Shown piece by piece: positions 28,050 through 35,034 of a stretch of DNA of 36,917 nucleotides. This DNA comes from a virus. A program made the position numbers and the translations under genes. Below the pieces are notes generated by a model. That model worked only from the letters and a program-made list of their open reading frames with translations. It searched no databases and was not told the origin of the DNA. The stretch is taken from positions 1-36,917 of IMG/VR virus record IMGVR_UViG_3300025913_000012. The stretch is one strand, 5' to 3'. Each line of letters opens with the position of its first letter. The first letter of the stretch is position 1.

Positions 28050-28514
28050 TTATTTTTTACCGTCCAAATAATCCAATATACTTTGCCTTGCTAGTAGCCA
28101 ATCGTCAAACCAATCAGCGCAATATCCCTCACTGCGCATTTCGGCTAAAAATTCCGTTTGATTCGGTCGAGGTTTTTGCCCAGGCGCTTTGAGTTCAATC
28201 CAGTAACCGGCATATTGTCTGCATGGCGATTGCCTGCACAAAAATAAATCAGCCACTCCTGGTCGTAAACCTGCTTGTTTCAATCTATGCGTGGCAAGTC
28301 GTCCGCGGTTGCCTTCATTGGGTATCGAAATGATCGGTAATCCTTTATTTAACGCCCAAGAGACCAATTTACACTGTAACCCATATTCTAAATTGCTCCT
28401 AGGCTTCCGTTTTTCGTCATAGTGCGACGATCTCGACTCGGTAGCTATGTATGTAGCGGGTAAGTCAATCGTGTCGCCATAAAGAGAATTTAAAGCTTCC
28501 ATGTACTTTTTCAT
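28050..28514 (-). CDS. VRR-NUC-type nuclease
   Basis: 154 residues from the ATG after AAGGAG, rather than the longer frame from 28562. The PD-(D/E)xK core reads E43...Q47, PNEG (66-69), GVADL (D89) and IELKAPG (E107, K109), then Q119, matching VRR-NUC nucleases, which may cut branched or flap DNA. It lies between the iteron array and the endolysin. It may finish or resolve replication intermediates. Confidence 0.8.
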   Translation of the reverse strand: MKKYMEALNSLYGDTIDLPATYIATESRSSHYDEKRKPRSNLEYGLQCKLVSWALNKGLPIISIPNEGNRGRLATHRLKQAGLRPGVADLFLCRQSPCRQYAGYWIELKAPGQKPRPNQTEFLAEMRSEGYCADWFDDWLLARQSILDYLDGKK

Positions 28515-28793
28515 AAATCGACTCCTTGTCAATTTTTTGATCAGGGTGACACGGTGACACAAAAGACACGAGTGACGCGGTTTTCTAACATATTACTAAA
28601 ATAGTAAATATTCCCATATTCTTATGATATACGTAATTACGTGTCACCCTGTCAGTGTAATTACGTATATATATGAAAATTAGAGAAAAAATCGGGGTGA
28701 CAGTTCAAAATTTATACTGTCACAGGGTGACACCAACCGTGTCACCTTTTTTCTGACAGTATAATTTTTAGCGTCACCTTAGTGTCATGCGCA
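28515..28793. repeat. Iteron-type array GGTGACAC, candidate replication origin
   Basis: Five perfect GGTGACAC copies in either orientation lie at 28545-28552, 28553-28560, 28641-28648, 28726-28733 and 28739-28746, plus near copies at about 28571, 28696 and 28771. An AT-rich stretch (28580-28640) lies between groups. Two palindromic structures are superimposed, at 28627-28670 and 28712-28764. The array directly follows the VapE helicase gene, an arrangement known for origins of phage satellites. Confidence 0.75.
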
Positions 28794-30005
28794 TTATTTA
28801 ACCTTCAAACTGTAATGACATGGTACTAAGCGAATTCTTTGTCCAGTTTTTGGCTCTCGTTCGGCTTTTTTTCCAGTCTTCTTTGTTAAAATTCTACTTA
28901 GTTTATTTGCACTGCTTGGATCAATTTTTGGCCATTTCATTTCTTTTAAAATATCTGTTACGGTCATAGCTTTTGTTAGTGGTGATTCCCAATCAAAAAA
29001 ATCCATTAACATTTCTTCAAGCGGATCAATTTGCTCATGATCTTCATTCAAAACATTAACTTCTTCTTGTAAGTCTTTGGAAAGATAAGTTAATCCGCCA
29101 TTTTTCCATTCTTGATAAACTTCTGCCCAAACTTGCTGCATATCGAAATTATGCTGGTAATCAATCTCTGTCGCCTCAATTGTCCACCAACGACGATTTC
29201 CAGTATCGTCAACCAAATAATTGCTTTTATTAACCGTGGCGATATAAACCGATCTGCGAGGGCGAACTTGATCTAATGGCGCGTAAGGACAGCGAATCTT
29301 GTCTGCTTTCATAGTTATAAAGCTTTTGATTCTAGCAATATCGGCGCTTTTATACGTTGCGTCTAATTCTCCCAGCTCGACTATCCAAAACTGCGACAAA
29401 GCGATAATGCAGTCTTTATACGCTGGGTCTAAAATTGCTCCGTCTTGCACCGCTCCACATGGCATTGGTTCTAATCCTCGAACCCAAGCGGTTTTGCCGA
29501 TGCCTTGCGCTCCTTGAATGACAATTGCACCATGATTAATAAAACCGTCAACGCTAAATGCTGCCGCAATAGCCGCAAGCATCCATGTTTTGATTATTCG
29601 ATTGCTTAATTCTTGATTGGTTGATTTTATCGTCTGGACAAATTGATCAAGTCTTTTTTCGCCATCCCAAGGTTTGCTTAAAATGCAATCAACAATAGGA
29701 TGATAGGCATTTTTCATGGCAATTTTTTGCAAATGCGCATTAAGAAATTTCGTCGGCATATCATTAAGAGTGGCCAAATAATGAACTTGCATTAATGCTT
29801 CATTGTCTAAATCTTCTGGGGATATATAATGACCAGGTATTTTTATTTCTCTGCGTCTTGTCATTAAGTTATAGCGGATTTCTGCGTTAAAATGCTTCAA
29901 AAGCCATTCCAAATTAACATGCGTATCGAGTACTTTTATTTTTTCTTTGGCGAGTTCTTTTGTTTCTGGGTAAAGCACGGTTGAATCAACTACTTTAAAT
30001 TCCAT
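28794..30005 (-). CDS. VapE-type superfamily 3-like helicase
   Basis: 403 residues. Residues 150-280 carry the ATPase core: Walker A GAQGIGKT (165-172), Walker B IVELGELD (208-215), and motif C with the arginine finger in IATVNKSNYLVDDTGNRRW (from 255). The N-terminal 110 residues look like the helical region preceding the ATPase in virulence-associated protein E (VapE) phage helicases. The C-terminal 60 residues resemble a winged helix (MTVTDILKEMKW), possibly for iteron DNA binding. Works with the primase at 30174. Translation starts after AAAGG. Confidence 0.85.
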   Translation of the reverse strand: MEFKVVDSTVLYPETKELAKEKIKVLDTHVNLEWLLKHFNAEIRYNLMTRRREIKIPGHYISPEDLDNEALMQVHYLATLNDMPTKFLNAHLQKIAMKNAYHPIVDCILSKPWDGEKRLDQFVQTIKSTNQELSNRIIKTWMLAAIAAAFSVDGFINHGAIVIQGAQGIGKTAWVRGLEPMPCGAVQDGAILDPAYKDCIIALSQFWIVELGELDATYKSADIARIKSFITMKADKIRCPYAPLDQVRPRRSVYIATVNKSNYLVDDTGNRRWWTIEATEIDYQHNFDMQQVWAEVYQEWKNGGLTYLSKDLQEEVNVLNEDHEQIDPLEEMLMDFFDWESPLTKAMTVTDILKEMKWPKIDPSSANKLSRILTKKTGKKAEREPKTGQRIRLVPCHYSLKVK

Positions 30006-30047
30006 ATAAAAAGCCTTTCATTTATTGCATTATTGCATCATTTGATT

Positions 30048-30165
30048 ACAATAAGCAGTTGATACGAGTTTAAAAATCCATTGATCTGTGACGCAATGTT
30101 GCCAATGGATATAAACGGATTTATGTTCTGACTGGGGAGCGTCAACTCCCCTACGGAAATAACTT
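30048..30165 (-). ncRNA. Structured leader between primase and helicase genes
   Basis: On the minus strand GGGGAG/CTCCCC encloses a 6-base loop, and further down ATCCATTG pairs with CAATGGAT around a 19-base loop and is followed by TTTTT. The second hairpin could be a terminator ending primase mRNA, or part of a leader controlling helicase. About 40 bases separate it from the helicase start. Confidence 0.45.
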
Positions 30166-30173
30166 TACTCTTA

Positions 30174-31097
30174 TTAACGTTTCATTAAAAGTTGCTTTTT
30201 GGTTTCATTTTGACCAAATAAAACATATAAATCATTAAAATCTGTCGGATATTTCCAAAGATAAGAATCAGGAAAATCTGGATAATAAATTTCACAGTTT
30301 AAAATTTTCGCTGCACTATTTGCATATTTTAAACCTGGATTATCAATTCCCCATTTATCATTATCAGCGCAAATTTTTATATTAGCATGAATGAATTTTC
30401 TTCGTAGCAAAACGCAAACAGATAAAAGATTATTAGCATTTATTGCACAAACTACTGGCGATTTAGTTATTTCTCTTATTGTGCAGCCAGTAGCATAACC
30501 TTCACATACGCGAATAACGCCGCGATAATCATCTTGCAACTTATCGCAAAGAAAAATCATATTGTTTTTTTGCGATGTACCTTTCCATAATCTTTTAAAC
30601 CCAGATGGTTTGATTATTTGCATTGTTATGAAATTAAAATTCACATCTGATACAGGGATTAATAACCAACTGCGACATTTTTTGGCGTAAAAAGGCATGA
30701 TTTTTTTATTAACGATATATGGATGATTTTCTGGGTCTTCTTTTGTATAAAATTTATTCCAAAACTCTTTTGCTCGCCATTGCTTTTTAGCTTTTTCATA
30801 ATCTTGAATAGCTTTTTTTTCTATTTGCAATTGCTTATTTAATCTTCTTTGCGCAAGTTCTGGTTTTTCGTAATTTATGTTCCAATAAGTAAACCAGTCA
30901 TCTGGATAATGCCAATCGCCAAAAGTCGCACCACGGTCATAATCATGCAAAATGACAAATAAATCTTTTTTTCTTTTATGTTTTGAGCCATCAGAAAAAC
31001 GCTGAAATTTCCCTGATAAACTGTAATTTATTGCGCCTTTTATATGGAAATTTCTTGATTCCATTACTTTTTCTAATTGCTCGGAAAATTCAATCAT
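30174..31097 (-). CDS. Toprim-domain DNA primase
   Basis: 307 residues from the ATG at 31097; a GTG four codons upstream is possible. The catalytic Toprim domain has CEGYATG (E199), ICADNDKWG (D245, D247) and TDFNDLY (D286). The N-terminal part (30-175) has the RNAP-like layout but no clear zinc-binding Cys/His set, and it carries FGDWH and LLIPV strands. It overlaps the RNase H-like gene. With the VapE helicase it forms a primase-helicase pair. Confidence 0.85.
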   Translation of the reverse strand: MIEFSEQLEKVMESRNFHIKGAINYSLSGKFQRFSDGSKHKRKKDLFVILHDYDRGATFGDWHYPDDWFTYWNINYEKPELAQRRLNKQLQIEKKAIQDYEKAKKQWRAKEFWNKFYTKEDPENHPYIVNKKIMPFYAKKCRSWLLIPVSDVNFNFITMQIIKPSGFKRLWKGTSQKNNMIFLCDKLQDDYRGVIRVCEGYATGCTIREITKSPVVCAINANNLLSVCVLLRRKFIHANIKICADNDKWGIDNPGLKYANSAAKILNCEIYYPDFPDSYLWKYPTDFNDLYVLFGQNETKKQLLMKR

Positions 31098-31521
31098 GAT
31101 GAAATTCACTTATCATAATGCCATCAATATTTTCTAAAGTATCTTTTATAGATTTCCATTTAAATTCAATAAATGGAAAATAATTATTAATATATCCTTT
31201 AGCTTTATTAGCATAATATTCATGTTTGCCTTCTTTTATGTTCCAGTTTTCTTGCATATGGCCAACAATAAGTGTTGAATTTGTCAAAATAATTATCTTT
31301 TCATTTTGCATTTGCAATGATATTAAAAATTTCAAAATGCAAATCAATCCGCAATAATCGGCAATATTATTACTAGCATGATTATTTTCATTACTTTTAT
31401 ATTGATGGCAGCTTTCGTGTATATTTACACCATTGCGATAAATCAAAACAGTATAAACCATTGTGCCGCCATCATAATTCGGCTCACACATGCCTTTAAA
31501 ATAAGCACATATCATTTTCAC
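31090..31521 (-). CDS. RNase HI-like protein with altered active site
   Basis: 143 residues. It has the ribonuclease H fold order: EPNYDGG (D17), NNIADYCGL, ILTNSTLIVGHM, and a last helix with NIDGIMISE. Active RNases HI use Asp-Glu-Asp-Asp; here the Glu position is D55 and the third Asp position is N81, while D17 and D133 remain. It may be a weak or inactive nuclease or a nucleic-acid-binding version. It is coupled to the primase, where RNA primer removal would be expected. Confidence 0.65.
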   Translation of the reverse strand: MKMICAYFKGMCEPNYDGGTMVYTVLIYRNGVNIHESCHQYKSNENNHASNNIADYCGLICILKFLISLQMQNEKIIILTNSTLIVGHMQENWNIKEGKHEYYANKAKGYINNYFPFIEFKWKSIKDTLENIDGIMISEFHHD

Positions 31522-32295: not shown

Positions 32296-32669
32296 ATCCA
32301 TTTCTCCGCATGAGCAATTAATGTTAGAACACCAGCAAATGCCCCAATACCACATAAAAACATATGCCATATTCTCGAATGAATGTTGTCGATTTTTTTG
32401 TCTATGATTTCGAATTTCGAATCAATTTTTTTATCTAATGTTTCAAACTTTGAATCAATTTTTTTATCTAAGGCATCAACTTTGAATTCAAATTTTTTAT
32501 CTAAATCGTCAATTTTTTTGTCTAATTTTTCAAATCCGTCATCCATTTTTTTTTCTAATCGTATTAATGTTTGATTTATATTAGCGCAGGTTTGCTCAAG
32601 TAAAGCCGTTCTGATTTCATAACTGTTATTTTGTTTCATTCTTATATCCTCGATTTTGCCAGCTTTCAT
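32292..32669 (-). CDS. Coiled-coil protein with C-terminal membrane anchor
   Basis: 125 residues. Residues 40-100 are tandem DKKIDSKFE-type repeats, a long coiled coil, followed by a hydrophobic helix (WHMFLCGIGAFAGVLTLIA) and AEKWI. This is a tail-anchored coiled coil, directly downstream of and overlapping the repressor, so it may be made in the same state as the repressor, for example for superinfection control. A start at 32639 with an excellent GAGGA site is the alternative. Confidence 0.65.
   Translation of the reverse strand: MKAGKIEDIRMKQNNSYEIRTALLEQTCANINQTLIRLEKKMDDGFEKLDKKIDDLDKKFEFKVDALDKKIDSKFETLDKKIDSKFEIIDKKIDNIHSRIWHMFLCGIGAFAGVLTLIAHAEKWI
32385..32560 (-). repeat. Short tandem repeats in the coiled-coil gene
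   Basis: A unit of 11 to 15 codons encoding Asp-Lys-Lys-Ile/Phe-Asp with Lys-Phe-Glu recurs about six times. The DNA is T-rich on the + strand with repeated tttttttatcta. This explains the repeated DNA; it is not a CRISPR array. Confidence 0.7.
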
Positions 32670-32872
32670 AATAAAAATTCCTCAATGTTCATATCTAAAT
32701 TCCTTTCTTTAATCAAATCATTCAATTTTTTAAAAGTTTGTGTGCTGGGATTTTTTTTTCCATTTTCAAAATAATTAATTAATGACCGCGAAACATTTAA
32801 AAGTTCAGCTAATTCTGTTTGATTCACGTTAAGCAAATATCTAATTTTTTTAATACCTTGCTGAATTGACAT
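32666..32872 (-). CDS. XRE/Cro/CI-type repressor, HTH only
   Basis: 68 residues, a single helix-turn-helix domain: QTELAELLNVSRSLINYFEN (18-37) with KKNPSTQTFKKL next, the canonical HTH_3 pattern. There is no C-terminal cleavage or dimerisation domain, so an SOS-type cleavage is not expected. It has a GGGGGAG ribosome site and is first in the leftward early unit; it would bind the operator repeats next to it and may control both units. Confidence 0.85.
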   Translation of the reverse strand: MSIQQGIKKIRYLLNVNQTELAELLNVSRSLINYFENGKKNPSTQTFKKLNDLIKERNLDMNIEEFLL

Positions 32873-33300: not shown

Positions 33301-33403
33301 CTACATAACTGCAAAGCAAAGAACATCATTTACTTATTGGCAAATATTAAAGTTTTACTTGAAGGAATTTATCCATGCTCACAATAGAACAAAAAGCAGT
33401 TAG
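33293..33403 (+). CDS. Possible micro-ORF, 36 aa
   Basis: ATG after GAGGG, overlapping the previous stop and the first 29 bases of the YqaJ gene. TDYITAKQRTSFTYWQ sequence, helical and basic. Fills an otherwise empty 74-base gap. Weakly supported. Confidence 0.3.
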   Translation: MTDYITAKQRTSFTYWQILKFYLKEFIHAHNRTKSS

Positions 33404-34211
33404 ACAGACAGGCCTTGGCGCAACAGATGCAGCAGTCGTTATGGGCTTGTCGCCTTATAAAACCCCGTACGAATTATGGCTGGAAAAAACTGGCCGTAAA
33501 GACGAAGAAGCTATCCTGAATGACAGCCGTTTGCGTTTGCGTCACGCGCATGAAGAAACCATAGCCAGGGAATATGCAGCTCAGTTTGACGTGAAGTTAA
33601 AGCGGGTCAATCAAACGATCTATCACAAACGCTTGCCATTCATGCTGTGCCATCTTGACCGCGTAATCATCGGCCAAAAGAAAATCGTCGAGTGTAAATC
33701 ATCCTCTGGTTTTCTGCGTCCTGCATGGGGCGCATCAGGCAGCGATGAAGCACCAATTCATTATATTCTGCAAGTACAGCATCAGCTCGCTTGCTCTGGT
33801 TATAGCGATGCCGACATTGCCGCGCTGATCGACATTGATGATTACCGTATCTATCCAATGCCTCGTAATGAAAAAGTCATCGCCAAAATTGAAGACGCTT
33901 GCGACCGCTTCTGGCATGAACACGTTTTGGCTGACGTGCCACCGGCTGCGAGCAACCGCGCCGACCTTAAACTGATGTACCCGACAAACAATGGCAAGTT
34001 TATTGGCGCGACATCTGAGATTGAAATGTTAATCTGCACAATCATGGCACGCAAAGAAAATATTAAGGCTATTGAAGCCGACAAAGAATGCGATGAAAAA
34101 CAGCTTATCGAGTTCATTGCAGACAACGACGGGATTATCGACAGCGAAGGCAAAACCATTGTGACATTCCAGGCAAACAAAAACGGCACAAGAACATTGA
34201 GGATTAAATAA
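33375..34211 (+). CDS. YqaJ-family exonuclease (phage recombinase)
   Basis: 278 residues with the lambda-exonuclease-like PD-(D/E)xK core: GATDAAVVMGLSPYKTP (14-31), HLDRVI (D95), IVECKSSS (E106, K108) and HYILQVQHQLAC (129-140). It degrades one strand to expose 3' single-stranded ends for annealing by RecT. ATG follows GAAGGAATTTATCC. It ends one base before the RecT gene, forming a two-gene homologous recombination system. Confidence 0.9.
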   Translation: MLTIEQKAVRQTGLGATDAAVVMGLSPYKTPYELWLEKTGRKDEEAILNDSRLRLRHAHEETIAREYAAQFDVKLKRVNQTIYHKRLPFMLCHLDRVIIGQKKIVECKSSSGFLRPAWGASGSDEAPIHYILQVQHQLACSGYSDADIAALIDIDDYRIYPMPRNEKVIAKIEDACDRFWHEHVLADVPPAASNRADLKLMYPTNNGKFIGATSEIEMLICTIMARKENIKAIEADKECDEKQLIEFIADNDGIIDSEGKTIVTFQANKNGTRTLRIK

Positions 34212-34212
34212 C

Positions 34213-35034
34213 ATGGCTACCCAAAGACATGAATTAGCAATACGGGATCAAGGTTTTAACTTTACCCCAACGACACTGGAAGAAGCGCAGCAATACGCAA
34301 CAATTTTCGCCAACTCCGGCATATGTCCAGAAGCTTATCGCGGTCGGCCAAATGACGTATTGATTATTTGGCAAATGGGCAATGAACTCGGCCTAGGCAA
34401 AATGCAAGCCTTGCGTACTCTGGGTTGCATCAACGGAATGCCTTTCGCTTGGGGCGACGGTCTCTTAGCACTCGTAAAGCGGCATAAAGAATTTGAAGAC
34501 ATGCGCGAATGGACAGAAGGCTACTTGGAGAAAGGCAACTTAACGGCTTTCTGCATGATCAAACGCCGCAATCAAGAACCGACAACGCAAAAGTTCAGCA
34601 TGGAAGACGCAAAACGCGCTGGCTTATGGGGTAAAAAAGGCACGTGGACGCAATACCCTGCAAGAATGCTCCAGCATAGAGCAAGAGGCTTTGCAGCACG
34701 GGATGCTTTCCCAGATGCTCTGTATGGTTTAATGTCTGAGGAAGAAGTCAGGCATATCCAGGAACCAGTCGAGAAGCCCGTAGAAATCAAAGGTAAAGGC
34801 ATTGCCGGTCTTGAAGACACGCTTGGCTTGAATGATGACGAAGTTATTGAAGCTGAAGTCGAAGTCATGACCACGCCTCTTTCTGAACTGATGCAGTTAA
34901 TCGAACAAACAGGAACATCGCAAAAGACCATCGATCTTTGGTTGAAAAAAGCTAATGTCACTCGCCTTGATGAACTTAGCTTAAGTCAAATAGAACAAGG
35001 CATTCACTTTCTAAAAAATAAGGAGCAACACTAA
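34213..35034 (+). CDS. recT: RecT-family single-strand annealing protein
   Basis: 273 residues. Residues 20-175 carry the RecT core (WQMGNELGLGKMQALRTL, GDGLLALVKRH, and KFSMEDAKRAGLWGKKGTW with QYPARMLQHRARGFAARDAF). The C-terminal 95 residues are acidic and variable, as in RecT proteins that contact host SSB. Anneals complementary strands exposed by YqaJ. The stop overlaps the start of the DUF669 gene. Confidence 0.92.
   Translation: MATQRHELAIRDQGFNFTPTTLEEAQQYATIFANSGICPEAYRGRPNDVLIIWQMGNELGLGKMQALRTLGCINGMPFAWGDGLLALVKRHKEFEDMREWTEGYLEKGNLTAFCMIKRRNQEPTTQKFSMEDAKRAGLWGKKGTWTQYPARMLQHRARGFAARDAFPDALYGLMSEEEVRHIQEPVEKPVEIKGKGIAGLEDTLGLNDDEVIEAEVEVMTTPLSELMQLIEQTGTSQKTIDLWLKKANVTRLDELSLSQIEQGIHFLKNKEQH

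Follow-up and report, generated by a model that had tools for sequence, protein, structure and literature searches.

A probable SaPI/PICI-type replication origin beside the VapE helicase gene of a podovirus-like phage

Introduction

Does a phage that encodes a VapE-type helicase also carry, directly beside the helicase gene, the origin on which that helicase would act? This question is raised by a short intergenic segment in IMG/VR virus record IMGVR_UViG_3300025913_000012, whose 36,917 nucleotides, hereafter the window, were analysed as one stretch. The original prediction proposed that repeats of GGTGACAC in this segment form a self-encoded origin of the SaPI type. Replication of a plasmid can be driven by a pri-rep-ori segment from a SaPI or PICI (PMC6092414), in which the origin immediately follows the 3' end of the helicase gene (PMC6092414, PMC7581432). 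In the PICI origin, two iteron sets flank an AT-rich region (PMC6092414), and the C-terminal domain of SaPI Rep recognises the iterons (PMC7581432). We conclude that 28515–28793 very probably serves this phage as a bidirectional, VapE-bound origin of replication of the SaPI/PICI Rep-ori type.

The intergenic array

The segment is a 279-bp gap that runs exactly from the VapE stop (28794) to the VRR-NUC start codon (28514), and thus stands just after the helicase gene, as had been proposed. It contains five exact copies of GGTGACAC (28545+, 28553+, 28641−, 28726+ and 28739−), the number originally noted. One further copy lies elsewhere in the window, giving six versus 0.26 expected, and at least six were reached in 0 of 100 shuffles. 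To correct for look-elsewhere effects, all 8-mers were considered in 100 shuffled windows; the richest 300-bp cluster held three copies in 95 of them, four in four and two in one, and never five. About three near copies had also been noted, and seven sites can be given: GGTGACAG at 28696+, GGTGACGC at 28771−, AGTGACGC at ~28571+, CTGACAGT at ~28752+ and ATGACACT at ~28781−, together with the shorter CTGACAG at ~28649− and GTGACAG at ~28716−. TGAC[AG] cores number 13 in the array, the weak thirteenth being TTGACA at 28527, versus a maximum of six in any comparable stretch outside, and the density of TGACA is 39/kb in the segment versus 2.4/kb elsewhere in the window.

The order on the + strand is 28545+, 28553+ and ~28571+, a 64-bp AT-rich stretch, the ~28641−/28649− pair, a 38-bp AT-rich stretch and a cluster of seven cores (Table 1). 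The repeats do surround AT-rich DNA, since the stretches between the iteron sets are 75% AT (28577–28640) and 79% AT (28657–28694) versus 61% for the whole window. The inner inverted iterons are spaced 88 bp apart across a gap of 71% AT. The array is asymmetric, with seven cores of alternating orientation on one side and only three to four on the other, and is less regular than the best arrays of its relatives. An Rfam search of 27–32 kb gave no match, nor did a DNA-level search of phage records with the array, which is expected because the motif diverges. GC skew across the window shows no switch at 28.6 kb; it follows the gene strand and is therefore uninformative on the origin.

Table 1. 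Features of the candidate origin and of the adjoining genes
Feature	Position	Strand	Evidence
VRR-NUC nuclease gene, directly beyond the array	28050..28514	-	PF08774 3.3e-7
Candidate replication origin, intergenic iteron array with AT-rich core	28515..28793
Two adjacent perfect iterons GGTGACAC GGTGACAC, left of the AT-rich core	28545..28560	+
Imperfect iteron AGTGACGC	28571..28578	+
AT-rich stretch (75% AT) between opposed iteron sets; candidate melting site	28577..28640
Inner pair, perfect GGTGACAC and CTGACAG, inverted relative to 28545-28560	28641..28656	-
Second AT-rich stretch (79% AT), between inner pair and outer cluster	28657..28694
Outer cluster, seven TGAC[AG] cores, alternating orientation (perfect 28726+, 28739-; CTGACAGT ~28752+)	28696..28788
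VapE-family SF3/AAA+ helicase, putative origin-binding initiator, 403 aa	28794..30005	-	PF05272 6.4e-48; phrog_1313 8e-65; 7pds Z 28.6
C-terminal winged helix codons, residues ~328-394, putative iteron-binding domain	28824..29024	-	AlphaFold2 model
Toprim primase, separate gene	30174..31109	-	PF13362 3.9e-6; phrog_2249 2.5e-45

The helicase and its neighbourhood

The PF05272 match bears out the identification of the helicase as VapE. A winged helix at its C-terminus, originally put forward as a possibility, is present in a confident AlphaFold2 model (mean pLDDT 93) built from an alignment of 57 relatives, with the elements H328–336, E345–347, H349–355, H363–377 and E390–394, the long helix 363–377 being the likely recognition helix. 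A profile search with the helicase found 7pds (SaPI PriRep1) as its only entry (4.6e-44), and in Foldseek the best solved match of the model was again SaPI PriRep1 with dsDNA (7pds, 3e-21). VIA comparison of the model with 7pds gave Z 28.6 with 386 residues aligned (model 7–402) and an rmsd of 4.6; as modelled, the helicase is related in structure to SaPI PriRep1 over its full length.

In most relatives the Toprim primase and the VapE helicase form one fused protein. In the window they are split by a 168-bp gap (30006–30173), and they are also separate in locus L022 and in phage PT1. ORFs of similar size occupy the position of VRR-NUC in L021 and L022. A small ORF just upstream of the primase (31090–31521 −) has a weak RNase H-like (RVT_3) match below the curated cut-off, a small HTH gene lies at 32666–32872, and the opposite strand carries the phage's own recombination module, a YqaJ exonuclease and a RecT annealing protein (33375–35034 +).

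The window also encodes a portal (phrog_156), a major head protein (phrog_283), a head closure protein (phrog_578), a DNA-ejection protein (phrog_598) and a terminase (phrog_2). The label "P22-type" is fair for these virion genes, given the P22-like portal, DNA-ejection and head closure families. With virion structural genes and a terminase of its own, the element is, by gene content, a podovirus-like phage and not a satellite, and the PICI definition of a satellite without a full virion gene set does not describe it. Most related records lack the portal family phrog_156; the module of helicase and array is thus not tied to one virion type.

Conservation of position and geometry

A single-sequence search of viral contigs found no close relatives of the helicase; an alignment search did find relatives, and 160 further VapE loci were taken from viral contigs and genomes; the counts that follow refer to 124 dereplicated loci. 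The top cluster of repeated 8-mers in the locus lies at the VapE 3' end in 55 of these 124 loci versus 7.9 expected. The full two-sided architecture, defined as at least six sites in two sets with inverted inner copies and a gap of 60–130 bp, was found in 46 of the 124 loci versus none of 124 shuffled loci, although the hits in L036, L118 and L162 are probably spurious GC-rich coding repeats. The array lies within 700 bp 3' of VapE in 33 of the 46, further downstream in 10 and upstream in three, and is 1–4 kb away in several relatives; a few of the distant hits resemble coding repeats. The window array has its geometry in common with 45 other dereplicated relatives. The other 78 relatives have no array at the threshold used; in some of them the reason is that the exact-8-mer method lacks sensitivity, or that the array lies kilobases away or off the contig. 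Plain tandem direct repeats are found in L024 and L087, and a Bacteroides phage with a VapE relative (L185) has no array.

Geometry was compared in 39 loci with a gap of 60–130 bp that was picked irrespective of strand. In 36 of the 39 the iterons on either side of the gap are inverted, in 34 the gap exceeds the remainder of the array in AT content (mean AT fractions 0.635 versus 0.516), and the median spacing is 95 bp. The iteron sequence itself varies widely over loci (AGGGACAC, CTGACAGT, AGGGTCGT, TGGTGGGA, AGTGCAAC and many more). In 32 of 35 loci, once the arrays are oriented by geometry alone, G stands to the left of C. This points to a single, common polarity of binding, which is the usual one in most Gram-negative phage loci (AGGGACAC, GGTGACAC) and is reversed relative to the AT-rich gap in the Pseudomonas group L173–L178 (TGTCCTAC) and in the SaPI locus L181 (TGTCCC).

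The architecture is also present in isolates, namely Acinetobacter phage Alexa (L012), Burkholderia phage Mica (L007) and Salmonella phage PT1 (L013), and by its site list C. difficile phage phiCDKH02 (L183) has the same layout. In Alexa the array is situated ~280–520 bp 3' of the gene for the primase-helicase. Mica/PT1-like phages carry a GGTGACAA array of the same geometry that does not adjoin the primase-helicase gene and lies 1.7–3.4 kb downstream of it (L007 8029–8216; L013 6770–7070; L026; L023). Furthermore, the 9.1-kb circular E. coli plasmid pSCU-121-2 (L016) has a fused Toprim-VapE replication gene followed by 11 AGGTGTCA iterons and is apparently a natural minimal replicon of this Toprim-VapE/iteron type.

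Covariation of iteron and helicase C-terminus

The nearest relative, L021, has a helicase 72% identical to that of the window and carries CTGACAGT iterons in place of GGTGACAC. Eight TGAC[AG] cores agree between the two arrays in position (within 4 bp) and orientation, an agreement reached in 2 of 2000 random placements and in 14 of 2000 orientation shuffles. The iterons are thus conserved in a close relative in their positions and orientations. The window retains CTGACAG-type sites at ~28649− and 28752+, as if the iteron specificity had drifted.

Over 50 dereplicated loci with arrays, iteron similarity follows the identity of the C-terminal domain when the helicase core is controlled for (partial r 0.187, and 0.346 for pairs with at least 50% core identity), with 0 of 2000 permutations in each case, although such permutations do not fully remove relatedness among sequences. 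For the N-terminal region, taken as a control, the value is −0.02. With the C-terminus accounted for, core identity has no further contribution (0.020 and −0.188). An earlier, stricter test on 36 loci found motif similarity to be as strongly correlated with the core as with the C-terminus, with a marginal partial p of 0.054; the larger sets (63 loci, and the 50 dereplicated ones) separated the two effects. A search of related phages for repeats that co-vary with the helicase C-terminus had been proposed as a check, and the repeats do track this domain, not the core or the N-terminus; identity of the recognition helix alone is a weaker predictor than the whole domain. Individual comparisons illustrate both sides. 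L047 shares 82–84% of the core with L064, L066 and L096 but only 42–43% of the C-terminus, and the iterons are completely different; L070 and L071 carry the same iteron, and their C-termini are 81% identical. L149 and L019, on the other hand, are a counterexample, in which the iteron is kept despite a 40%-identical C-terminus.

Comparison with known systems

A staphylococcal record annotated as SaPI genes (L181), whose Rep shares 98.6% identity with the 7pds fragment, served as positive control. Its GGGACA sites stand directly 3' of rep at 2+, 21+, 76−, 84−, 162+, 170+ and 255+, which is the layout of the phage loci. The phage resembles SaPI Rep/PriRep1-ori (7pds) in having a VapE-type helicase with a C-terminal DNA-binding domain, predicted in the phage, an origin directly 3' of it, and iteron pairs inverted ~80 bp apart across an AT-rich gap. 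It differs first of all in being a phage, which encodes a portal, a capsid and a terminase of its own. Second, SaPIbov1 and SaPI5 primases are of the AEP type (PMC7581432), whereas that of the window is Toprim. Third, the SaPI iteron is GGGACA, that of the window is GGTGACAC, and their polarity relative to the gap is opposite. Compared by layout, the Gram-negative PICI EcCICFT073 also has two iteron sets flanking an AT-rich region 3' of pri-rep (PMC6092414), although PICIs, unlike this phage, are satellites that need a helper phage for particles. SCCmec Cch2 has a C-terminal domain that binds iterons directly downstream of its gene, at a putative origin; unlike the window helicase, it belongs to the D5_N/Primase_Cterm family and has only three AAGTG iterons (PMC7581432).

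The window thus combines a VapE initiator homologous to SaPI Rep, a modelled winged-helix C-terminus and an array 3' of rep, and inverted iteron sets around an AT-rich gap are found both here and in the SaPI control. The SaPI-type design originally proposed holds by homology to PriRep1, anatomy, the geometry of the control, conservation and covariation, and on its sequence features the element most likely belongs to the SaPI/PICI-type Rep-ori kind.

Alternative explanations

The array could instead be no origin but a set of operators through which a phage transcription factor, or VapE as an autoregulator, controls the downstream VRR-NUC/lysis genes. Repeated opposed sites between two co-directional genes, the small HTH gene mentioned above and a weak promoter-like match at 28647–28618 that overlaps one site would fit such a role. 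However, promoter-like matches are no commoner than in shuffles (7 versus 8.2), the array accompanies the helicase gene through many unrelated neighbourhoods, motif similarity tracks the helicase C-terminus specifically, and ~12 sites over 240 bp with a 60–130 bp AT-rich gap are origin-like rather than operator-like. We thus regard control by operators as improbable.

P4 alpha is a self-loading primase-helicase with a C-terminal winged helix that binds GGTGA-type iterons, and P4 needs a second, distant site (ori and crr). The window shares with it the primase-helicase function with a C-terminal winged helix and GGTGA-type iterons; the GGTGAACAG-type iterons bound by P4 alpha are close to GGTGACAC and to GGTGAACG of L109, and the arrays that lie 1–4 kb away in several relatives would suit a two-site arrangement, with the array as one of two required elements. 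We nevertheless hold such a P4-like origin to be quite unlikely: the array is the top repeat cluster, no cluster elsewhere in the window scores higher and there is no second array in it, the window primase and helicase are separate genes, and the closest solved structure is SaPI PriRep1. Finally, that the array is mainly a transcription terminator or attenuator (GGTGACAC-caacc-GTGTCACC followed by T6 on the + strand) is extremely improbable, since the terminator-like hairpin called at 28724–28748 +, for all its perfect GGTGACAC/GTGTCACC stem, faces against the flanking − strand genes, belongs to a class whose count equals the shuffle mean (2 versus 2.0), and accounts for 2 of ~13 sites but not for the distant inverted iterons or for the relatives' arrays of other sequence. 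Each of these explanations leaves most of the evidence unexplained.

Proposed mechanism

For the SaPI/PICI-type origin, we propose that the VapE helicase, encoded just upstream, would bind the GGTGACAC-type iterons via its C-terminal winged helix, so that two helicase hexamers may assemble on the oppositely oriented iteron sets. The hexamers would then melt the AT-rich stretch between these sets and, being self-loading, would need no separate loader. They would unwind outwards in both directions, and the adjacent Toprim primase would prime the exposed strands, with elongation presumably by host enzymes. Binding, melting, hexamer loading, bidirectionality and use of the origin in vivo are steps that we infer. 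The complete replicon suggested for 28.5–31.1 kb may likewise be inferred, with host DNA polymerase and clamp presumably still needed.

Implications

We lean towards the view that PICI-type origins are a common class of phage origin and not specific to satellites, their geometry being kept as the 8-bp iteron diversifies together with the winged helix. If this is true, each phage would have a private replication address, plausibly as a safeguard against cross-firing or against parasitic satellites. The presence of this layout in phages that encode their own virion proteins, among them Alexa, Mica and PT1, supplies a predicted origin for each and suggests that phage and satellite replicons have a common source. 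Furthermore, the dozens of natural helicase/iteron pairs may hold a recognition code of the winged helix that could be read and tested.
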